NCBI GenBank assembly: GCA_022824395.1
Contig: JAJDZX010000073.1
Coordinates: 1-45,017, forward strand
DNA from: Alphaproteobacteria bacterium
Lineage (GTDB): Bacteria; Pseudomonadota; Alphaproteobacteria; TMED109
Direction: 5' to 3'
Length of the DNA: 45,017 bases
Made by a program: the position numbers and the translations under genes. The stretch's first letter is position 1. Every line of letters begins with the position of its first letter. Of the stretch, positions 27,468 to 45,017 are shown piece by piece. Under the pieces are notes generated by a model. It was not told the DNA's origin and searched no databases. It was given only the letters and a program-made list of their open reading frames with translations.

Positions 27468-28303
27468 ATCCGCCCACGCTGCTCAGTGTCGAGCATCTCA
27501 CCATGCGCTTCGGCGGCCTGATCGCGGTCGACGACGTCAGCTTCTCGGTGGAACAGGGCGCCATCCACGCCCTGATCGGCCCCAACGGCGCCGGCAAGAC
27601 CACGGTGTTCAACTGCCTGACGGGCTTCTACAAGCCAAGCGTCGGACGGATCACGCTGCACTCGCCGGAGTCCCGGACGCCGTTCCTCCTTGAGCAGATG
27701 GACGACTACCGGATCGTGCGCGAGGCCAAGGTCGTGCGCACGTTCCAGAACATCCGCACGTTTCCCAAGATGTCCGTCCTCGAAAACCTGATGGTGGCGC
27801 AGCACAACCACCTGATGCGCGCGTCCGGATGGACGTTCCTCGGACTGATCGGCGCGCCGTCCTTCCGCCACGCCGAGGCGGAATCCGTGGAGCGGGCCGA
27901 GTACTGGATCGGCCGGACCGGGCTGGCCGACTACGCCGATACGGAAGCGGGCGCCCTCCCCTACGGCGAACAGCGGCGCCTCGAAATCGCGCGCGCCATG
28001 TGCTGCGATCCCGTCCTGCTCTGCCTGGACGAGCCGGCGGCCGGCCTGAACCCGAGCGAAACCGAGGAGTTGAGCGAACTCATCGGCTACATCCGGGACC
28101 ACCACCACATCAGCGTCCTGCTGATCGAGCACGACATGTCCATGGTCATGGGCGTCTCGGATCACATCGTGGTGCTGGACTACGGCCAGAAGATTGCGGA
28201 AGGCGCGCCCGAGGCCGTCCGCAACGACCCGGCGGTCGTCCAGGCCTACCTCGGGAGTGACGATGAGGACGAGGCCGGCGAGCGCGCGGACTCGACGCCA
28301 TGA
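27464..28303 (+). CDS. livG: ABC transporter ATPase LivG
   Basis: 279 residues. Walker A GPNGAGKT (about 41-48), LivG-type insertion, ABC signature replaced by [15 protein letters not shown], Walker [14 protein letters not shown] and the LivG hallmark [12 protein letters not shown] with the H-loop His. ATG overlaps the livM TGA (ATGA) and the stop overlaps the livF ATG, so translation is coupled throughout. It energises amino-acid import with LivF. Confidence 0.96.
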
Positions 28304-29022
28304 CGCCACTGCTCAAGGTCACGGGCGTGCGCACCTTCTACGGCGCGATCGAAGCCCTGCGCGGAGTCGATGTCGAGGTCGCCGAGGGCGAGATTGTCAC
28401 GTTGATCGGCTCGAACGGTGCCGGCAAGTCCACCCTTCTCATGACCATCTGCGGCAATCCGCGGGCGCGCACCGGCGAGATCCAGTTCGCCGACCAGGAC
28501 ATCACGCGCCTGCGCACCTGGGACATCGTGCGGCTCGGGATCGCGCAGACGCCGGAGGGAAGACGGATCTTCCCGCGCATGACCGTGCTGGAGAATCTGC
28601 AGATGGGCGCCGTCGCGAATCCGGCCGTCGACTTCGACGACGGCGTCCGGCACGCCTTCGAGTTGTTCCCGGTGCTGGGCCGGCGCCGCAATCAGAGCGG
28701 CGGGACCCTCTCCGGCGGGGAGCAGCAGATGCTGGCCATCGCACGGGCGCTCATCAGTCAGCCCAGACTGCTGCTGCTCGATGAGCCCTCGCTGGGCCTC
28801 GCGCCACGGCTGGCGCGCCAGATCTTCGCCGTACTGCGCGAGATCAACCGAACGAGCGGCACCACGATCTTCCTGGTGGAACAGAACGCCTACCACGCGT
28901 TGCGGCTCTGCCACCGGGGGTACGTGCTCGCAAACGGCCTGGTCACGCTGGAAGGCACCGGCAGCGAGCTGCTGGCAAACCCCGCGGTGCAGGCGGCCTA
29001 CCTCGGGGGCACCGGGCAGTGA
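28300..29022 (+). CDS. livF: ABC transporter ATPase LivF
   Basis: 240 residues. Walker A GSNGAGKST, Q-loop region RLGIAQTPEGRRIFPRMTVL, signature TLSGGEQQMLAIARAL, Walker B LLLLDEPSLGLAP and IFLVEQNAYHAL, the LivF-type switch region with Gln in place of His. It forms the ATPase dimer with LivG. Overlaps livG by 4 bp and the next small membrane gene by 3 bp (GTGA). Confidence 0.96.
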   Translation: MTPLLKVTGVRTFYGAIEALRGVDVEVAEGEIVTLIGSNGAGKSTLLMTICGNPRARTGEIQFADQDITRLRTWDIVRLGIAQTPEGRRIFPRMTVLENLQMGAVANPAVDFDDGVRHAFELFPVLGRRRNQSGGTLSGGEQQMLAIARALISQPRLLLLDEPSLGLAPRLARQIFAVLREINRTSGTTIFLVEQNAYHALRLCHRGYVLANGLVTLEGTGSELLANPAVQAAYLGGTGQ

Positions 29023-29390
29023 TCGAAACCCTGCTCGGCATGTCGCTCGGCGTCTATGTCGGGGTCACCGTCGTGATCGGCGGCGGCGCCTCGTGGTTGT
29101 CCGGGCGCGCCCTGGCCCTCGGCTGGCGACCGGTCTGGATGGTCGTGCCGACCGCACTGGGACTGGCGCTCGCCGACCGGTTCTTCGTGTGGGCCCTGTT
29201 CGCCGGCGAGTTCTACCCCGCAATCGGCACCCTGGCGGAGTTCGCCACCCTCCTCGGCCTCGGGCTGCTGGCGCACCGCCACACCCGGACCCGACGCATG
29301 GTGCAGCAGTACCCCTGGCTGTACGAGCGCGCCGGTCCGCTCACGTGGCGCCGCCTGACCCGCGATTCCGACCGCGAAACCGCTGGCTAG
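29019..29390 (+). CDS. Small membrane protein of liv operon (DUF6867-like)
   Basis: 123 residues with three hydrophobic helices (LGVYVGVTVVIGGGASWLSG, VWMVVPTALGLALADRFFVW and AIGTLAEFATLLGLGLLAHR) and a basic C-terminal tail with QQYPWLYER. It starts at GTG 29019 overlapping the livF TGA, so it belongs to the transporter operon. I recognise it as the small protein (recalled as DUF6867) found at this place in alphaproteobacterial liv operons. Its role is unknown; an accessory part of the transporter is a reasonable guess. Confidence 0.75.
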   Translation: MIETLLGMSLGVYVGVTVVIGGGASWLSGRALALGWRPVWMVVPTALGLALADRFFVWALFAGEFYPAIGTLAEFATLLGLGLLAHRHTRTRRMVQQYPWLYERAGPLTWRRLTRDSDRETAG

Positions 29391-36119: not shown

Positions 36120-37907
36120 TCAGGGCCGCGAGCGAGGCTGTCGCTGGGCCATGTCGTGGCCGGGACCAAGTTCATCGACCATCATTTGTCGCATTCGGAA
36201 TTTCTGCGGTTTGCCCGTGACGGTCATGGGTACTTCCGCAACCACGCGGATGAAGCGGGGAATCTTGTAATGCGCGATGTTCCCCTGACAGAAACTGCGG
36301 ACGTCTTGTTCTGACAACTCGAAGCCCGCGGTCGGAATGACCCAGGCACACACCTCTTCTCCGAAGCCGGCATCCGGGATCCCGAACACGTGCGCCTCGC
36401 GAATCTGCGGATGGCGAAACAGGTACTCCTCGATTTCGCGCGGGTAGATGTTCTCGCCCCCCCGGATGATCATGTCCTTGACCCGACCGGTGATGGTGCA
36501 GAACCCGCCGGCGTCCAGGCGGGCCAGATCGCCGGTATGCATCCAGCCGTCGCGGACGCTCGCCCGTGTCGCTTTCTCGTCATCCCAGTACCCCTTCATG
36601 ACGGAGTAACCACGGGTACACAATTCACCTTCTTCGCCGACCGGGAGCACCCTTCCGCCCGAATCGACGACCCGGGCCTCCAGGTGCGGATGGATCCGTC
36701 CGACGGTGTTGCAGCGCTGCTCGACCGGGTCGTCAACCATGCTCTGAAACGACACTGGCGAGGTCTCGGTCATGCCGTAACAGATGGTGAGTTCCGGCAT
36801 GTGCATCTCGTTCAGGACCCGGTCCATCACCACCTTCGGGCACGGTGCACCGGCCATGATCCCGGTCCGCATCCCGGCGAGTTGCAGGTCGAGCGTGGGA
36901 AGCTGATCGAGCATGGCGACAAACATCGTCGGCACGCCGTAGAGCGCGCTGCAACGCTCATCGGACACCGTGGAGAGGGTGGCCCCGGCGTCGAAGCCTT
37001 CACCGGGGAACACCATTGCGGCGCCCTTGCTGATCGCGCCGAGGACCCCCATCACCATGCCGAAACAGTGGTAGAGGGGAACAGGGATGCAAAGGCGGTC
37101 CGCCTCGGTGAGATGGATCCGGTCGGTGACAAACCGCGCATTGTTCACGATGTTCCGGTGAGTCAGCGTCGCACCCTTCGGCTCTCCGGTCGTGCCGGAA
37201 GTGAACTGGATGTTGATCGCGTCATCTGGGTCCAGGGTCGAATCGACAGCAGCGAGCCGCAGGGCTTGCGCCGGTCCCGCGAGACCGGCCAGGCTTGCGA
37301 ACGCGTGGATTCCCGGCCCCGGGTCATCGCACAGGGCAATGACGCTCCGGAGATGCGGCAGCTGCTCCGAGCGCAGGCCGCCCGGCTGGCACCGGTCAAG
37401 CTCCGGGGCCAGGCTCCGCAGCATTCGCAGGTATTGTGACGACTTGAAGCTCTCGGCCAGCACCAGCGCGCGACAACCGGAACGGTTGAGCGCGAACTTG
37501 AGTTCCGCCGACCGATAGGCGGGGTTGATGGTGACCAATATCACGCCGATGCGCGCGGTGGCGAGCTGAGTCAACACCCACTCGTACCGGTTGGGCGACC
37601 AGATTCCGACCCGATCGCCTTTCTCCAGCCCGATGGCGAGGAGCCCGGCCGCGAGAGCGTCGGTTTCACGGCAGAGGTCGCGGTAGCTCCGCCGGATCGG
37701 CTGGTGCGCACAGATCACGGCCTCCCGCGGCCCGAACCGCGAGGCCGCGCGCCCGAGCAGGTGCGGGACCGTGATCGCCTCGAGTGGCGGCGCGGCGGGC
37801 CCTCGCACGTACGACTCGCCGTGGACGGGAACGAGGTCAGGTGACGGGGATGGTGCGGTACCGAAATCGGCGATTCGGCCTGCCAGGCTCTGGGTCAGGA
37901 TGTTCAC
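36120..37907 (-). CDS. AMP-dependent acyl-CoA ligase
   Basis: 595 residues from GTG 37907, 10 bp after the amidase stop. Activates a carboxylic acid with ATP and CoA. Landmarks: FTSGTTGEPKGATLTHRN (AMP/P-loop motif), ICYGMTETSP, GYWDDEKAT, DGWMHTGDLARLDAGGF, TGRVKDMIIRGGENIYPREI and the catalytic Lys in TGKPQKFRM near the end. It belongs to the medium/long-chain acyl-CoA synthetase group; the substrate is not fixed by sequence. Last gene of the operon with the transporter and amidase, where the acid released by the amidase would be its natural substrate. The start codon is by operon context; the ribosome binding site is weak. Confidence 0.88.
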   Translation of the reverse strand: MNILTQSLAGRIADFGTAPSPSPDLVPVHGESYVRGPAAPPLEAITVPHLLGRAASRFGPREAVICAHQPIRRSYRDLCRETDALAAGLLAIGLEKGDRVGIWSPNRYEWVLTQLATARIGVILVTINPAYRSAELKFALNRSGCRALVLAESFKSSQYLRMLRSLAPELDRCQPGGLRSEQLPHLRSVIALCDDPGPGIHAFASLAGLAGPAQALRLAAVDSTLDPDDAINIQFTSGTTGEPKGATLTHRNIVNNARFVTDRIHLTEADRLCIPVPLYHCFGMVMGVLGAISKGAAMVFPGEGFDAGATLSTVSDERCSALYGVPTMFVAMLDQLPTLDLQLAGMRTGIMAGAPCPKVVMDRVLNEMHMPELTICYGMTETSPVSFQSMVDDPVEQRCNTVGRIHPHLEARVVDSGGRVLPVGEEGELCTRGYSVMKGYWDDEKATRASVRDGWMHTGDLARLDAGGFCTITGRVKDMIIRGGENIYPREIEEYLFRHPQIREAHVFGIPDAGFGEEVCAWVIPTAGFELSEQDVRSFCQGNIAHYKIPRFIRVVAEVPMTVTGKPQKFRMRQMMVDELGPGHDMAQRQPRSRP

Positions 37908-37917
37908 GGGCGCATCG

Positions 37918-40326
37918 CTACATCGTCCGCCAGTCGCCGGTCTGCTCGAAGGCGTGGGCGGCACGGTAGATCGTGGTTTCCTGATGGGAGCCCCCGACCA
38001 GCATCATGCCGATCGGCAGTCCCTCGCTCATCCCGCAGGGGACGTTCATCGCCGGCAGGCCCCCGTTGAACGGGGCCGTATTGCCGATGTTCTCGAACGC
38101 CCGCTGGATGTACAGCGCGATCGAGCAACCCGGCGGCGGGAGTTCCTGCGCCTTCATCGGCAGCGTCGGCAGCAGGAGAAGGTCGTGCGCCTCGAGCGCG
38201 CGTGCGTAGGCCGCGTTCGCCTTCCGCATCAGGTTCTGCGCCTTGCCGTAGAACCGGCCGCGATACTGCCGGCGGAAGTGTTCACCGAGAAACATGCAGA
38301 CCTTCAGGGAGTGGCTGAGTTCGTCCGCCCGCGTCCGCCACTGGGCCATGTGATCGATCATCGACGGCAGGAACAGGCCGCGGCAGTTCGTGCCGGCCGC
38401 GTTGCCGTGCATCATCTGGTCCTGCAGCCCTTCGACGGCGATCGCCGTCCAGCAGTCAAGCGCCAGGAAATGCTCGGGGACCGACACCTCCTGGACGCTC
38501 GCACCCAGCTCGCGGAAGCGGTCGGCAGCTTCGCGTACCTTGCGGTCGACGTCCGGCTCGCTCTCCGTACGGTCGAAGCCCTCCTTGAGCACGCCGATCC
38601 GAAGCCCGCGGACACTCTGGCCGAGCGCCTCGGTGTAGCGGGCAGTCTCCGGATTGCGCTGCCGGGGATCGAGCCCGTCGTCGCCCGCCAGCACCTCCAG
38701 CAAGACCGCATTGTCAGCCACGGTGCTGGTGACCGGCCCCACGTGGTCGATCGTGCGCTCGATCGGCATGATCCCGGTGTACGGGACCAGGCCGTGCGTG
38801 GCCTTCATGCCGTACACGCCGCAGTTTGCCGAGGGGATCCGGATGGAGCCCCCCTGGTCGCCGGCAATCGCCATGTCGACTTCCCCGGCGGCGACGAGCG
38901 CCGCCGAGCCGCTCGACGAGCCGCCCGCCATGTAGCCGCGCTTCCACGGGTTCTGGACCGGCCCCTTGGCGCCGGTGTGCGAGCCCGCCGACAGGCAGAA
39001 ATTCTCGCAGTGGGCCTTGCCTGCAATCGTGGCGCCGGCGTCGAGCATGCGGGTGACGATGGTGGCGTCGACCTCCGGCGTATAGCCCTCCATGATGGCC
39101 GAGCCGTTCATCATCGGCACGCCGGCGAGACACACGGTGTCCTTCAGGACGACCCGCTTGCCGCGGAGCGGACCATCCGGGGCGCCGCGCACGTCGGTCT
39201 TGACGTACCAGGCGTTCAATTGATTTTCGGACGGTTCGGGGAAGTGCCCCGGCGCTCTCGGATAGCGCACCGGCGGCAGGTGGTCGGGCGCGGCATCGAG
39301 CCGGTCGTAGGCCTGGACATAGGGCTCCATGACTTCCCGGTACTGTTCGAGTTCGTGGTCGGTGAGGCCCATGCCGAACCGGTCGGCCATGGTGCGCATC
39401 TGCGCGAGCGAGGGTCGGTTGACGGTCATGGTATTCGCTGTTCCGGGGGAGCCACTGGCAACATCAATTGCTGGGGGCGGCGCCCGTTCCTCCGGGACAC
39501 GTCCGTGGACCGGGGCGGCAGCCCGCTCCACGGGGTACGCGTTCCCCGCCGGGCCGGGGCGAGGCGACGGAGAGGAAGACGAGGCGGTGCGCGCCGGGCC
39601 GAGACCGAGAAGCGTCTCGATTTCGGCCGGGTTCGAGAGGTCGCTGCGCCCAAGCTCACCCGTGACACGGCCCCGTTCCAGGATGAGGACCCGGTCGGAC
39701 AGGGCGGCGACGAAATCGAAATTCTGCTCAACCAGCAGGACGGACAGTGCCGAACGCTCCTGCAGGCCGCGCAGGGTTTCGGCGATCTCGTCGACGATCG
39801 AGGGCTGAATGCCTTCGGTCGGTTCATCGAGCATCAGGAAATCGGGCTCGCCCATCAGGCAGCGCGCAAGCGTCAGGAGCTGCTGCTCCCCGCCGGACAG
39901 GGCGCCGCCCTTGCGGTCGAGCAGATCGGCAAGGCGGGGGAAGGCGGCGACAACCGTGTCCAGCACATCGTCTTCGTGCGCGCCGGTGAAGCCCTGCCAG
40001 CCGAAGCGCAAATTGTCCCGGACGGTGAGTTGCGGAAAGATCCCCCGTTCCTGGGGGACGAAGCCGAGCCCCGAGCGTGCCCGCTCGAACGCCGGCAGTG
40101 CGGTGATCTCACTGCCGCGGTACCGGATGACACCGGACGTAGCGGGCAGCAGGCCCATGAGCAGCCGCAGCAGGGTGGACTTCCCCATGCCGTTGTGACC
40201 GAGGATTCCGACCACTTCGTCATCGAACACCCGGAGGTCCACCCCGTGCAGGATGGGCACCTTTCCGTAGCCGCCCGTGAGGCCCTTGACCTCCAGGGCC
40301 GGTACCGATTCCGGGACCTCGGTCAC
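37918..40326 (-). CDS. ABC ATPase (UrtE/LivF-like)-amidase fusion
   Basis: 802 codons without a stop. Residues 1-243 are a LivF/UrtE-type ATPase: Walker A GHNGMGKS (43-50), LSGGEQQ (143-149), FLMLDEPT (163-170), LLVEQN. Residues 244-299 are a Ser/Pro/Ala-rich linker. Residues 300-802 are a complete amidase-signature enzyme. Counted from its own Met, the triad is Lys96, cis-Ser171 in GGSSSGSAA and Ser195 in GDQGGSIRIP, the numbering I recall for the Rhodococcus enantioselective amidase. GTG 40326 overlaps the upstream ATPase TGA. An internal ATG at 39429 could start free amidase but has only a weak Shine-Dalgarno. Substrate: an amide imported by this transporter. Confidence 0.85.
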   Translation of the reverse strand: MTEVPESVPALEVKGLTGGYGKVPILHGVDLRVFDDEVVGILGHNGMGKSTLLRLLMGLLPATSGVIRYRGSEITALPAFERARSGLGFVPQERGIFPQLTVRDNLRFGWQGFTGAHEDDVLDTVVAAFPRLADLLDRKGGALSGGEQQLLTLARCLMGEPDFLMLDEPTEGIQPSIVDEIAETLRGLQERSALSVLLVEQNFDFVAALSDRVLILERGRVTGELGRSDLSNPAEIETLLGLGPARTASSSSPSPRPGPAGNAYPVERAAAPVHGRVPEERAPPPAIDVASGSPGTANTMTVNRPSLAQMRTMADRFGMGLTDHELEQYREVMEPYVQAYDRLDAAPDHLPPVRYPRAPGHFPEPSENQLNAWYVKTDVRGAPDGPLRGKRVVLKDTVCLAGVPMMNGSAIMEGYTPEVDATIVTRMLDAGATIAGKAHCENFCLSAGSHTGAKGPVQNPWKRGYMAGGSSSGSAALVAAGEVDMAIAGDQGGSIRIPSANCGVYGMKATHGLVPYTGIMPIERTIDHVGPVTSTVADNAVLLEVLAGDDGLDPRQRNPETARYTEALGQSVRGLRIGVLKEGFDRTESEPDVDRKVREAADRFRELGASVQEVSVPEHFLALDCWTAIAVEGLQDQMMHGNAAGTNCRGLFLPSMIDHMAQWRTRADELSHSLKVCMFLGEHFRRQYRGRFYGKAQNLMRKANAAYARALEAHDLLLLPTLPMKAQELPPPGCSIALYIQRAFENIGNTAPFNGGLPAMNVPCGMSEGLPIGMMLVGGSHQETTIYRAAHAFEQTGDWRTM

Positions 40327-41039
40327 GCGGCCTGCCCCAGATAGACGCTGCGGACGGCCGGATCCGCCAGCACCGCGTCCACGTGACCCTCGAGCAGCAC
40401 GGCGCCCCGATGAAAGACCGTGACGATTCTCGCAATCGAGCGGATGAACTGCATGTCGTGTTCGACCACGACCACGGCCGCCGTCCGCGTGAACTCTTCC
40501 ACGATTTCGGTGAGGCGTTCGACGTCGCCGCCGGTCATCCCTGCCGCGGGCTCGTCGAGCAGCACCAGCCAGGGATCTCCTGCCATGACCATGCCGAGTT
40601 CGACATGCTGGCGCTCGCCATGGGCGAGCCTGCCAGGCGAGCCGCGCGCAATGGGTCCCAGCGCCAGCCGGGTGATGGTTTCGTCGGCTTTTCGGGTAGC
40701 AGCCTGCGGCGGCAGGAACCGGCGGGCGGCGAGCCAGATGTTCTCGAAGACGCTGAGCCCGTCCATGACGCTCGGTACCTGGGTCTTGGTGCCGACGCCG
40801 CGACTTGCCACCTGGTGGGCGGGCCAGCGCGTGGTTTCCCGGCCGCGCATGAAGATCTGCCCCTCCGTGGGCTGAAGCAGCCCCGTGATGCACTTGAAGA
40901 ACGTCGACTTCCCGGCACCGTTCGGGCCGATGAGGCACCGGAGCTCGTGGGAAGCCAGCCTGAAGTCAACCTGGGCAACCGCCAGCACCCCACCGAAGCG
41001 CATGGTGAGACCCTGCGTCTCCAGGACCGTTTCAGGCAT
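40323..41039 (-). CDS. ABC transporter ATPase (LivG/UrtD-like)
   Basis: 238 residues. Walker A GPNGAGKS, FKCITGLLQPTEGQIFM, GVGTKTQVPSVMDGLSVFEN, a signature region LAHGERQHVELGMVM (the usual SGG is replaced by AHG, as in UrtD/LivG proteins), Walker B LVLLDEPAAGMTG and VVVVEHDMQFIR. ATG 41039 is chosen by family alignment; upstream frame to 41255 overlaps the permease. It overlaps the permease stop by 8 bp and the fusion gene start by 4 bp. Partner of the ATPase domain in the fusion. Confidence 0.92.
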   Translation of the reverse strand: MPETVLETQGLTMRFGGVLAVAQVDFRLASHELRCLIGPNGAGKSTFFKCITGLLQPTEGQIFMRGRETTRWPAHQVASRGVGTKTQVPSVMDGLSVFENIWLAARRFLPPQAATRKADETITRLALGPIARGSPGRLAHGERQHVELGMVMAGDPWLVLLDEPAAGMTGGDVERLTEIVEEFTRTAAVVVVEHDMQFIRSIARIVTVFHRGAVLLEGHVDAVLADPAVRSVYLGQAA

Positions 41040-42075
41040 CGCCTGATGCCAGGGACGACCGCGGCCCGCGACGTCGCGGGGATCGGCGCCGGGGGCGCCT
41101 CTGCGTGACCGAACGCCAGGCGTTCGCCAGCACGGGCGCAATCCCTCCCGGGAGAAAGAGCACGAAGAGGACCAGGATGGCGCCGGACACGACGGAATTG
41201 TGAATGAGCCCCTGCTGGCCCAGGAGAAACTTGAGGTAGGAGAGGCCGGCTGCACCCAGCACCGGCCCGATGCGGGTGCCGAGGCCGCCCACGATGCACC
41301 AGATGATGATGTCTGCCGACTGGCCGAGGGAGAACAGGCGCGGGGTGACGATCTCCGCCCAGTTCGCGAACAACGCGCCGGCCAGTCCGGCGATCGCGGC
41401 GCCGGCCGTGAACATGACGGTCTTGCGGGCCGGCACGTCGTAGCCCATCAGGGCTGCGCGCGTTTCGTTCTCGCGGATGCCGACCGCTATGCGTCCGAAT
41501 GACGACCGGAGCAGCGCGCTCACGAGCAGATACACCAGCAGCAGGCAGGCCGCACAGAAGTAGTAGAGCGAGTCCCCCCAGACGTATGAAGCGGGGTGTC
41601 CGGGGACGTTCAGGGTCTGGAAGCCCGGAATTCCGTTGAAGCCGCCAAGCCGAGCGTTGCCGATGACATAGTCCGACCCGGCGGTGGCGTTCATGAACCG
41701 GTGGAGGATCAGCGTGACCACGAGGGTGATGACGCCAAGGTAGACATCGGTCAGCCGACCATAGAACAGCATGGCGCCAAGCAGCGCGGCGAAACCCGCC
41801 GGAATCGCCACCGCGAGGAGCATCGGCACCGTGCTCTCGCCGATGTTGATCGCGGCAATGGCGTAGGTGTAGGCGCCAAGGCCGAAAAAGGCCGCCTGGC
41901 CGAAACAGAGGATCCCCCCGAACCCCCAGACGAGACCCAGACTGAGACCGAGCATCCCGTAGATGACGAGGACGGTCAGCGTGTAGGTGCTGACCAGCAT
42001 GGGCAGGACACCAACGGCGCATGCGGCCGCAACCAGCGTGCCGGTGAGTTCGCGACTCCAGCCGGCTTCCCTCAC
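41032..42075 (-). CDS. ABC permease (LivM/UrtC-like)
   Basis: 347 residues, about nine hydrophobic helices. YGMLGLSLGLVWGFGGILCF, GQAAFFGLGAYTYAI, RLTDVYLGVITLVVTLILHR, NGIPGFQ, RIAVGIRENETRAALMGYDV and CIVGGLGTRIGPVLGA are the LivM/UrtC features. The very basic C-terminal tail (RRPRRRSPRRRGPRSS) is not part of the fold. It overlaps the upstream permease gene by 4 bp (ATGA). Together with it forms the transmembrane channel. Confidence 0.93.
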   Translation of the reverse strand: MREAGWSRELTGTLVAAACAVGVLPMLVSTYTLTVLVIYGMLGLSLGLVWGFGGILCFGQAAFFGLGAYTYAIAAINIGESTVPMLLAVAIPAGFAALLGAMLFYGRLTDVYLGVITLVVTLILHRFMNATAGSDYVIGNARLGGFNGIPGFQTLNVPGHPASYVWGDSLYYFCAACLLLVYLLVSALLRSSFGRIAVGIRENETRAALMGYDVPARKTVMFTAGAAIAGLAGALFANWAEIVTPRLFSLGQSADIIIWCIVGGLGTRIGPVLGAAGLSYLKFLLGQQGLIHNSVVSGAILVLFVLFLPGGIAPVLANAWRSVTQRRPRRRSPRRRGPRSSLASGDA

Positions 42076-42938
42076 AGCGATTCTCTGAACAGCCGGTCGG
42101 TGATGCCCCGGGGCAGGAGGCGAAGGAGGACGACGGCCGCCACCAGGAGCGCGACTTCGCCGACAACCGGCGAAACCGCGAAGCTGAAGATCTGGTTGAT
42201 CAGACCGAAGACGCCAGCGCTGCTCGCCAGGCCCGCGATGAGCGCGGGACCGCCGGCGATGACCGTGATGAAGGCCTTCGCGATGTAGGCGCCACCGGAC
42301 GTGGGGACCAGCCCGACGAGCGGCGCGAGGACAGCGCCCGCCAGCCCCGACAGCGCGGAACCGCAGGCGAACGTCAGCATGTAGATGCGGTCAGGGTTGT
42401 AGCCGAGCGACGCGGCCATGTCCGCGTGCTGCATAGTCCCGCGGGCGATTAACCCGGACCGGGTCGATCTCAGCACGGCCAGCATGAGGAAAAGGAGTGC
42501 GGCTGCCACCAGGACAATGAAGAAATTGTACCCGTTGACCTGGTAGTCCCCGAGCGCGAAACCGGGAATGGGAGTCGATATGCCGGTCGTCGTGTTGCCG
42601 AACACCATCGTCACGATGCCGACGAACAGCAGGCTCAACCCCCAGGTGGCGAGCATCGTGTCGATGAGACGGCCGTAGAGGTGCCGGATCACCAGACGCT
42701 CGACGACGAGGCCCAGCACGCCGACGACCGCCGGCGCCAGGACGAGCATGGCAAGAAAGACGTTCACGCCGAGATCGACGGCGGTGATCGTGGCGTATCC
42801 CCCGAGCATCATGAACTCGCCGTGCGCGAGGTTGATGACTCGCATCATGCCGAAGATCACGGCCAGGCCGGCGCTGATCAGAACCAGTGCGCCGATCGCG
42901 TACAGCACTTCGACGACGATGACGAGAATGAAATCCAT
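42072..42938 (-). CDS. ABC permease (LivH/UrtB-like)
   Basis: 288 residues from ATG 42938. Typical LivH/UrtB signature: GLAVIFGMMRVINLAHGEFM, MLATWGLSLLFVGIVTMVFG, GTMQHADMAASLGYNPDRIY, GAYIAKAFITVIAGGPALIA. About eight helices. The frame reaches 43001 but the family begins at MDFILVIVVEVL. No clear Shine-Dalgarno precedes it. It lies 79 bp downstream of the binding-protein gene in the same operon. Confidence 0.93.
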   Translation of the reverse strand: MDFILVIVVEVLYAIGALVLISAGLAVIFGMMRVINLAHGEFMMLGGYATITAVDLGVNVFLAMLVLAPAVVGVLGLVVERLVIRHLYGRLIDTMLATWGLSLLFVGIVTMVFGNTTTGISTPIPGFALGDYQVNGYNFFIVLVAAALLFLMLAVLRSTRSGLIARGTMQHADMAASLGYNPDRIYMLTFACGSALSGLAGAVLAPLVGLVPTSGGAYIAKAFITVIAGGPALIAGLASSAGVFGLINQIFSFAVSPVVGEVALLVAAVVLLRLLPRGITDRLFRESL

Positions 42939-43017: not shown

Positions 43018-44241
43018 TCAGATCTCGATTTCGTACTGCTGGTTGTCGTCCGGGTTGGCCTCCAGATCGCACACGGCCTGGGTGTCGATGGGCTGACGCC
43101 GCGGCAAGGTGTCGATGACCGTCATCCCCTGGTTCTCGATCTCCATCAGATGGACGTCGAGGACAGCGTGGTGGGTCCTCGGGTCGACCGTCACCGTGCC
43201 GCCCGGACCCTGGACGGAAATCCCGGTCTCGAGCGCCGCGACGACCGAATCACGCTCGAGCGAGCCGGCTTCCCGCACGGCGGCCGCCCACGTCAGCACG
43301 CCCTGGTAGTTCGATACCGCGATCTCGTGGATGGCCGTGTCGTCGCCGTAGGCGGCCGCCCATTTCCGTTTGAACTCCGCGTTCTTGGGCGTGTCGAGCT
43401 CCTGGCTGTAGTTGTAGGCAACCATGATCCCGTTGCCCTCATCCGCGGTCAGGACCTTGTGTTCATTGCCGACGCCGAGGGTCGTCGAAGCAAGGGGGAT
43501 CCGGGCCTTCATGCCTGCCGCGGCCCATTGCCGGAAGAACGACAGGTGGGCGCCGCCCACCAGCGGCGCGATGACCAGGTCCGGGGCAGTCGACTGGATC
43601 TTCGCGATCGTCGATCCGAAGTCCGAGACATCGAGCGGGAAGAAGTCGACAGAGACGGTTTCGCCGCCGTTGTCGCCGACGTACTTCTGGATCCACTTGG
43701 CCGTGATCTGGCCGTAGTTGTAGTCGGCCGCAAGGATGTAGACGGTACGGGCACCCACCTTGTTCATGGCGTAGGGCACAAGTGCCTCCACCTGCTGGGC
43801 CGGCGTGACACCGTTGATGAAGATGTTGCGGTCGCAGACCCCACCTTCGTACAGCACGTTGTAGAAGTACAGCGTCCCGCTCTTGCGCAGGATTTGGCGA
43901 ATGGCCTCGCGGGAGGCCGACAGGATGCCGCCATGGACGACGTCGACCTGGTCCTCGCGGGTGAGCTGCTGCGCATACTGCGAATACAGCGCCATGTCCG
44001 ATTGCGTGTCGTAGGCGACCACTTCGATAGGGCGCCCCAGCAAGCCGCCGGCATTGTTGATGTCGGCCACGGCGAGACGCATCGCCATGTCCATCGGCTT
44101 GCCGTAGGCGTCGAAGATGCCGGAGCTGTCGAGGACGGATCCGAGCTTGATGGCGTCGGCTGCGGCCGCGGGGTACCCCAGAACCGCGGCACCCGTCAAT
44201 GCGGCGCTGCCACCGAGAAAGTGGCGACGGTTGATGGACAT
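43018..44241 (-). CDS. Amide/urea-type ABC binding protein (UrtA/FmdD-like)
   Basis: 407 residues. Tat-like signal MSINRRHFLGGSAALTGAAV with the twin Arg at 5-6 and cleavage near AAAADA. The mature type I binding fold shows IKLGSVLDSSGIFDAYGKPM, NNAGGLLGRPIEVVAYDTQS, GGILSASREAI and YNVLYEGGVCDRNIFING, followed by ILAADYNYGQ. The VLYEGGVCD region matches the urea/short-chain-amide binding proteins UrtA/FmdD more than LivJ. AGGAGG lies 8 nt before ATG 44241. First gene of the operon ending in amidase and acyl-CoA ligase, which supports an amide substrate. Confidence 0.9.
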   Translation of the reverse strand: MSINRRHFLGGSAALTGAAVLGYPAAAADAIKLGSVLDSSGIFDAYGKPMDMAMRLAVADINNAGGLLGRPIEVVAYDTQSDMALYSQYAQQLTREDQVDVVHGGILSASREAIRQILRKSGTLYFYNVLYEGGVCDRNIFINGVTPAQQVEALVPYAMNKVGARTVYILAADYNYGQITAKWIQKYVGDNGGETVSVDFFPLDVSDFGSTIAKIQSTAPDLVIAPLVGGAHLSFFRQWAAAGMKARIPLASTTLGVGNEHKVLTADEGNGIMVAYNYSQELDTPKNAEFKRKWAAAYGDDTAIHEIAVSNYQGVLTWAAAVREAGSLERDSVVAALETGISVQGPGGTVTVDPRTHHAVLDVHLMEIENQGMTVIDTLPRRQPIDTQAVCDLEANPDDNQQYEIEI

Positions 44242-44302: not shown

Positions 44303-44878
44303 TCATGCCTTGCCCTTGTCCTTGGACTTGATTCGATTCGCGTAGTCGGCAGTGCGGCCGGCAAGGTTGGGATCAAAGTCGAGGCCGATTTCGGCCCCCA
44401 TCTGCTTCATGGCCGGCAGTCGGACGGCCATGCCGAGGATCTGTTCCATCGCGGCGCCAAAGGCGTTTTCCGCCGTGTCCGAACCTCCCGCCCCCGGTCC
44501 GGCCCCGCCGATCTGATTGATCCGGATGGATTCGATCTTTTCGACCGGCTTCATCATCTGCGCCATGATCTCGGGGAGGCGATCGAGCTTGCGTTCCTCC
44601 AGGCGCATGCGGATCACGGAGTCACTCAGCAGGTTCTCGGCCTTGTTCAGCGCCGTGCGTCCGTCAGCCTCTGCCTCCATGCGGGCCTTTTCGGCTGATG
44701 CGGCGGTTGCCGTTGCGGTGGCCTCGGCCTTGGCTTTCGCGAGCACCGTGTCGACATCGGTCTGCACGCGCGCGTTCTCGCGGGCGAGGTCCTGTTCCTG
44801 GCGCATCCAGGCGATTTCTCCCTCGCGCTCGGCGGCGGAACGTTCCTTCTGTGCCAGCACATTTTCGGAGGCGAGCAC
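44303..44878 (-). pseudogene. Flotillin C-terminal fragment
   Basis: About 191 residues of a flotillin-like protein. Long Ala/Glu-rich coiled coil (KAEATATATAASAEKARMEA), then RLEERKLDRLPEIMAQMMKP, VEKIESIRINQIGG, FGAAMEQILGMAVRLPAMKQ and DFDPNLAGRTADYANRIKS, the C-terminal half of flotillins. The N-terminal membrane hairpin and SPFH domain (about 300 residues) are missing: at 44879 the sequence changes to a different unit. The frame opens at a GTG that probably has no meaning. It may once have been cotranscribed with the transporter operon, which starts 61 bp downstream. Confidence 0.75.
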
Positions 44879-44918
44879 TAGTGTCGTGTCACAGAGATTT
44901 TGACAGTTTGAGGCGCGT

Positions 44919-45017
44919 TCATTTCAGTTTGGGGAGCTGTTCGGGATCGACGAGAACGCGGATGCTCCGTGGCTCGCCGGGGACGCGTTCGATCAGGCGT
45001 GCCTGGTGGAGATTGAG
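44919..45017 (-). CDS. C-terminal end of an unidentified protein
   Basis: The minus strand encodes HQARLIERVPGEPRSIRVLV and DPEQLPKLK then TGA at 44919. The pattern is like the winged-helix wing of LexA-type DNA-binding domains (G-I-R-x-G-x-x-RSIxVL), but with only 32 residues the family is open. Its 3' end, followed by a sharp change into the truncated flotillin at 44879, suggests this is part of an inserted unit. The rest is outside the window. Confidence 0.4.
   Translation of the reverse strand, partial: LNLHQARLIERVPGEPRSIRVLVDPEQLPKLK

Follow-up and report, generated by a model that had tools for sequence, protein, structure and literature searches.

The window analysed here, a 45,017-nucleotide contig from the draft genome of an alphaproteobacterium, carries on its minus strand a gene in which an ABC import ATPase appears to be joined to an amidase. 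As a rule, the ATPase of an importer and the enzyme acting on the imported cargo are two separate proteins, and this locus raises the question of whether the join is real, whether it yields one protein or two, and what it might do for the cell.

A LivF-type ATPase and an amidase in a single reading frame

The minus strand at positions 37918-40326 is a single open frame of 802 residues with a terminal stop only; the preliminary description of this DNA had claimed such a frame without giving its strand. The parts of the gene are as follows.

37918..40326, minus strand: fused gene, LivF-type ABC ATPase, linker and amidase, 802 residues, GTG start at 40326
39601..40326, minus strand: LivF-type ATPase part, residues 1-242, placed by domain profiles and structure model
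39430..39600, minus strand: disordered linker, residues 243-299, placed by low model confidence
37918..39429, minus strand: amidase part, residues 300-802 and the stop codon, placed by NF005565 score and catalytic triad

Both domains were found to be complete, again in agreement with the earlier claim. Pfam models placed ABC_tran at residues 26-170 (PF00005, 109.5 bits against a cut-off of 25) and Amidase at residues 377-786, and the amidase part passed the NCBIfam NF005565 (PRK07235) cut-off over residues 300-801 with 761.7 bits against 545. In the alignment of the 79 fused loci described below, the ATPase residues K49, Q92, S144 and E168 (Walker A, Q-loop, signature and Walker B) were present in every locus, and so were, in their alignment columns, the residues of the Ser-cisSer-Lys catalytic triad (K395, S470 and S494), for which the numbering Lys96-Ser171-Ser195 from the amidase's own Met had been given correctly. 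Narrower triad motif patterns matched 45 and 76 of the 79, because adjacent residues vary. Foldseek returned 3a1k as the top structural match, for the amidase, and 1ji0 for the ATPase; the former is the amidase of Rhodococcus sp. N-771 (3a1k, 3a1i), which belongs to the same family over its full length (468 bits). Judged by sequence, the amidase part is a complete enzyme of the Rhodococcus N-771 type and a predicted carboxamide hydrolase, although the Rhodococcus enzyme is free-standing, with no ATPase, whereas that of the window is joined to one.

The linker is flexible, as had been proposed, with pLDDT below 50 at residues 242-301 of the second model described below and an abundance of Ala, Pro, Thr and Ser across the 79 loci. 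It is 35-74 residues long (median 48, by BLAST boundaries) and varies freely, with a mean majority share of 0.41 in the 79-locus alignment compared to 0.79 and 0.83 in the two domains. A first structure model of the fusion was poor (mean pLDDT 53.7), while a second AlphaFold2 model, built on a 71-row alignment with unfused amidases included, reached a mean pLDDT of 74.7 with both domains mostly folded; both models bear on the fold of each domain and not on contact between domains.

Spread of the fusion across genomes

A database search for the two-domain architecture, the check that the preliminary description had proposed, gave 7806 homologues within the E-value limit, and the ATPase-amidase pair (PF01425 and PF00005) was present in 120 of the 120 matches listed, one of which (P0002) is the window's own cluster, in proteins of 781-838 residues. 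All displayed database names for the protein were just "amidase". We gathered 79 fused loci with 55-100% identity to the window, a main group of 63 and a deep group of 16 at 55-59% identity, and the frame is uninterrupted in all 79. The working set, after removal of cut and duplicate loci, held these 79 and 38 unfused loci. Dropped from it were L081 and the contig-cut L057, which was also left out of the wobble scan; L127-L135 repeat loci already counted and were used for neighbour genes, and L100, a contig-end copy of the fused type mislabelled unfused, is among the 38 but was kept out of the quick amidase tree.

When named genomes were scanned, the best 80 of 99 relatives were retained; together with the first whole-genome matches they make up 82 loci in which the amidase matched strongly, and 62 of these are fused while 20 are not. 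Among the carriers that have a name are Ruegeria, Phaeobacter, Sulfitobacter, Roseobacter, Hoeflea, Roseibium and Shimia, and in Sulfitobacter sp. THAF37 the fusion lies on a complete plasmid as a single gene, annotated 'amidase'. In a class sample of 385 genomes, 43 gave matches with an E-value of 1e-150 or lower, and 11 of these, the window's own included, carried the uninterrupted full-length fusion. The fusion is patchy within the window's own family (2 of 28 genomes, an order search giving the same 28), and family searches around the deep matches found it in 4 of 23, 6 of 9, 5 of 11 and 1 of 14 genomes.

The idea that these are two ordinary genes whose separating stop codon was lost to an assembly or sequencing error was rejected as extremely improbable, since its sole favourable point is a draft genome in 133 contigs, against which stand the 120 listed matches, the complete THAF37 plasmid and the same join in 79 loci, with no missed stop or base error of the kind the preliminary description had allowed for in the linker. 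The fusion is thus real, as that description held, but it is not peculiar to this genome, being an old, conserved architecture.

One fused locus, L051 (VXPS01000431.1), is 92% identical to the window's fusion and is filed as 'MAG: Chloroflexi bacterium'; all of its kin in the quick amidase tree are alphaproteobacterial, and it is probably a mis-binned contig.

Origin of the fusion

Among the 38 unfused loci, 28 have a LivF-like gene upstream of the amidase and in the same orientation. The distance from the last sense codon of that gene to the amidase start is 21-376 nt, and 21-35 nt in 17 of the 28; the remaining ten loci include short or cut ones. This agrees with the earlier statement that amidase genes beside amide/urea-type importers are known, the 28 having the LivF-like gene within 400 nt. 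The unfused amidases have strong Shine-Dalgarno (SD) sites (mean anti-SD energy -10.96, weakest -3.9, in 20 loci). With a LivF-like gene just upstream and a strong SD site, loss of the intervening stop would be a natural route to the fusion, and it is reasonable to suppose that the fusion arose in this way from neighbouring genes. The preliminary description had put forward the same origin; the unfused neighbours make it a reasonable one, but the event was ancient and is shared by 79 loci.

The fusion is ancient and conserved, and the trees fit one or two origins. In the quick amidase tree the 32 fused rows used, of 79, all lay to the same side of a branch whose support was 56, and the LivF tree, also with 32 of 79, needed two changes between the fused and unfused states. 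A careful tree, with 15 of the 79, likewise needed two changes and gave p-AU 0.374 for a single fused clade. The flotillin and the acyl-CoA ligase common to the fused loci speak for a single origin.

The importer and its neighbours

The fused gene lies in a conserved order: flotillin, binding protein, LivH, LivM, LivG, LivF-amidase, acyl-CoA ligase. The other genes of the window's operon are given below with their counts in 60 fused loci that exceed 12 kb in length and do not include that of the window.

44303..44884, minus strand: flotillin gene, C-terminal part (Flot domain), the rest on another contig; 58/60
43018..44241, minus strand: substrate-binding protein with Tat signal; 59/60
42072..42938, minus strand: permease, LivH/UrtB-like, start codon inferred; 60/60
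41032..42075, minus strand: permease, LivM/UrtC-like, by profile match; 60/60
40323..41039, minus strand: second importer ATPase, LivG/UrtD-like, its stop overlapping the start of the fusion; 60/60
36120..37907, minus strand: acyl-CoA ligase (AMP-binding), after the fusion, GTG start inferred; 59/60

The flotillin and acyl-CoA ligase, absent from the preliminary description, are conserved with the fusion, and a search of 20 long unfused loci, some of them contig-cut, with identical score limits detected neither gene. In the two fused loci that lack flotillin (L022 and L054) the contig ends near that place, and L130, of the deep group, has flotillin without the ligase. Recurrent ORFs of 153 and 189 residues (31/60 and 11/60) had no Pfam match, look like chance frames and were set aside as spurious.

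The flotillin was identified from the SPFH (Band_7) and Flot domains in L080, the window holding the Flot part only. In the window's genome this gene is split over two contigs, with residues 358-550 here and 15-361 on contig C81. At the junctions (window 44876-45017; L139, G000:C81, 2010-2149), read by eye, CTAG stands beside matching inverted-repeat ends, and both contigs end inside an inserted element, a pattern as after transposon insertion. As its gene appears interrupted, flotillin would not be essential in this genome.

The five HAAT-type importer parts stand side by side (binding protein, two permeases and two ATPases) and are the same parts as those of UrtABCDE and LivFGHMJ of the HAAT family. 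The nearest curated models are those of urea importers, and all fell below cut-off. The ATPase part scored 250.8 against UrtE (TIGR03410, equivalog cut-off 285.8) and 139.5 against LivF (NF008626, equivalog cut-off 441), and the binding protein and permeases reached 335.0 of 494.8, 240 of 374.25 and 252.6 of 575.55 for their urea models. Identity as a urea importer was rejected on these scores. The system differs from UrtABCDE and LivFGHMJ in that its parts lie under both the urea and the Liv cut-offs and in that its LivF-type ATPase carries an amidase. The binding protein is related to AmiC (1pea, 95 bits), the amide sensor of the aliphatic amidase operon and a cytoplasmic regulator, though it is closer to the urea-binding protein 7s6e (150 bits) and to 8tg1 (186 bits). 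Taken together, the urea models below cut-off and the kinship with AmiC suggest that the cargo is amide-like and probably not urea. A Tat signal in the binding protein (TIGR01409, 20.9 bits against 16.7; also PF10518) points to its export in folded form. A second pair of LivF/LivG-like ATPase matches, at 27920-29031 on the plus strand, lies outside this operon.

A conserved start codon within the fused frame

The first codon of the amidase part has been kept as a start codon throughout the family.

39427..39429, minus strand: retained internal amidase start codon, ATG (residue 300), ATG in 78 and GTG in one of the 79 fused loci

The exception, L037, has GTG, itself a start codon, and the site stands at the end of the freely varying linker. 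An SD word of at least 5 nt precedes it in 58 of the 79 loci, compared to a mean of 15.3 and a maximum of 25 in 500 synonymous shuffles. In the main group, 48 of 63 loci have GGTGA, which is complementary to the 3' end of 16S rRNA, at precisely positions -10 to -6. Across the group the codon that contains the first G of this word stands for nine amino acids, and still 58 of the 63 loci have G as the third base of that codon; from the amino acids and codon use, 27.5 of 61 loci would be expected to have this G, and 56 do, while for the wobble base of the next codon 54 were seen against 25.5 expected. Of 678 windows of codons, the one made up of the 13 codons from -5 to +7 is the most strongly biased in synonymous codon choice (62.4; mean per codon 16.0), the best non-overlapping window elsewhere reaching 34.1. 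Anti-SD energy at the internal site is -7.57 compared to -4.80 in shuffles, with 0 of 300 shuffles as low. The mRNA at the internal start is also more open than in synonymous shuffles, by 3.24 kcal/mol in the main group and 4.55 in the deep group, while nine control positions ranged from -1.83 to +0.84. Because of their common descent, the loci do not count as independent trials; as controls for kinship we used the remaining alignment positions and a set thinned at 80% identity, and both the anti-SD effect (-7.17 versus -4.39 in 20 thinned loci) and the openness (+3.28 kcal/mol) hold in the thinned set.

The deep group has other SD words at the same place, AGGAGG in 6 of 16 loci and GGAGG (as GGGAGG or CGGGAGG) in 3 of 16, the other seven having shorter or doubtful words, and its mean anti-SD energy is -10.19 compared to -6.22 in shuffles. 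These observations suggest that the internal start of the amidase has been selected as a translation start in the family. The question of one protein or two, raised in the preliminary description, would then probably be answered 'both' in most members, since the internal start looks selected, and their fused genes probably yield a tethered and a free amidase.

Single measures separate the site less sharply: 45 of 690 codon offsets were better by anti-SD energy alone and 8 of 660 by SD word alone. In the wobble scan, sites +7 and +3, near the Met, and +116, far from it, exceed sites -4 and -3. At the Met at +185 the SD word equals that of the internal start (0.75), for which the protein motif there can account, and the mRNA is not open; the Met at +10 shares the open mRNA without an SD word. 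Two true starts of the operon are likewise weak in SD. The fused frame's own start, with an anti-SD energy of -4.56, is weaker than the internal site, though the benchmark operon starts were picked by rule, as the ATG or GTG lying closest to the aligned start, and their means are rough. As the frame's own start pairs less well, free amidase may be the more abundant product.

The window's own copy makes a weaker case. No SD word of at least 4 nt precedes the internal start there or in the same-genus locus L009, and such a word is lacking in 10 of the 79 loci, the window's included, with four more having GATC only, which is not convincing as an SD word. The close relative L051 keeps GTGA. Anti-SD energy in the window is ordinary (-3.5, with 56% of shuffles as strong), although the mRNA is open (-5.0 versus -11.5 kcal/mol, with 2% of 500 synonymous shuffles as open). 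With no recognisable SD word, the argument for two products is weaker for the window, in whose own genome a second product is possible.

These weaker copies bear on the chief alternative, that the gene makes the fusion only, a single protein of about 85 kDa, and that the bias at the junction serves something else or is an old ribosome-binding-site relic; in one variant, a pause or unstructured mRNA would give the ATPase time to fold ahead of amidase synthesis. The copies without an SD word (the window's and nine others) fit this alternative, as does open mRNA that extends past the start to include the Met at +10. A relic, however, would be expected to decay in a linker as variable as this one, and the different SD words of the deep group at the same place, as well as the fact that the single non-ATG codon is GTG, speak for a start in use. 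We regard production of the fusion alone as rather unlikely, though a serious alternative.

Proposed function of the fusion

Our preferred reading, to which we assign a probability of roughly 0.55, is that the fusion holds the amidase at the predicted cytoplasmic mouth of the importer and that most relatives also make the free enzyme. Tethering of the hydrolase at the importer's cytoplasmic face, as suggested in the preliminary description, is plausible. The binding protein would capture a carboxamide, the importer would carry it in, and the tethered amidase would cut it at the channel mouth to an acid and ammonia. Free amidase from the internal start could catch amide that escapes and may pair with tethered copies, and an internal start would allow more amidase than importer. 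The acyl-CoA ligase would turn the product acid into acyl-CoA for catabolism, flotillin would gather the importer in a membrane patch, and the long disordered linker would leave the LivF-type ATPase free to pair with the second ATPase. The whole of this scheme, an amide-eating membrane machine with a flotillin-gathered importer, an ATPase-borne enzyme, a set ratio of tethered to free amidase and passage of the acid to acyl-CoA, is put forward tentatively, as less likely than not.

Alternatively, the joining might only fix co-expression, with the amidase free or clipped and no gain from tethering. Unfused neighbours of the same kind exist, in the 28 of 38 loci described above, and Ala/Pro-rich linkers can be protease-sensitive. 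A fusion of mere convenience is harder to reconcile with a frame that stays uninterrupted in 79 of 79 loci down to 55-59% identity, and with a careful tree that allows few changes of state at most, and we consider it improbable.

Internal starts of this kind have been shown by experiment for Cas11b, made from inside cas8b (PMC11899642), and for the Rpn genes-within-genes (PMC10327210). One frame there gives a long protein and its C-terminal part, as we propose for the fusion; here the start is predicted from sequence, and the shorter protein would be a complete enzyme. No earlier report of the fusion, the internal start or the flotillin link was found in the open-access papers searched.

Each part of this system is known; for the combination, an import ATPase joined to the enzyme that would use its cargo and retained alongside an internal start, a flotillin and a ligase, those papers gave no precedent. 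If the full scheme is true, the fusion would be a natural example of an importer ATPase in one chain with the enzyme that consumes the cargo, and we know of no other. To our knowledge, the physical coupling of uptake and first metabolism in bacteria has been little examined. Since this natural fusion is old, widespread and present in marine bacteria that can be cultured, such coupling could be put to a direct test by severing a single linker, and the proportion of tethered to free enzyme could be adjusted simply through the internal start codon. The finding also mends the annotation: these importers seem to be without a second ATPase because records call the whole fusion 'amidase', and the entries so named also hold the importer ATPase.
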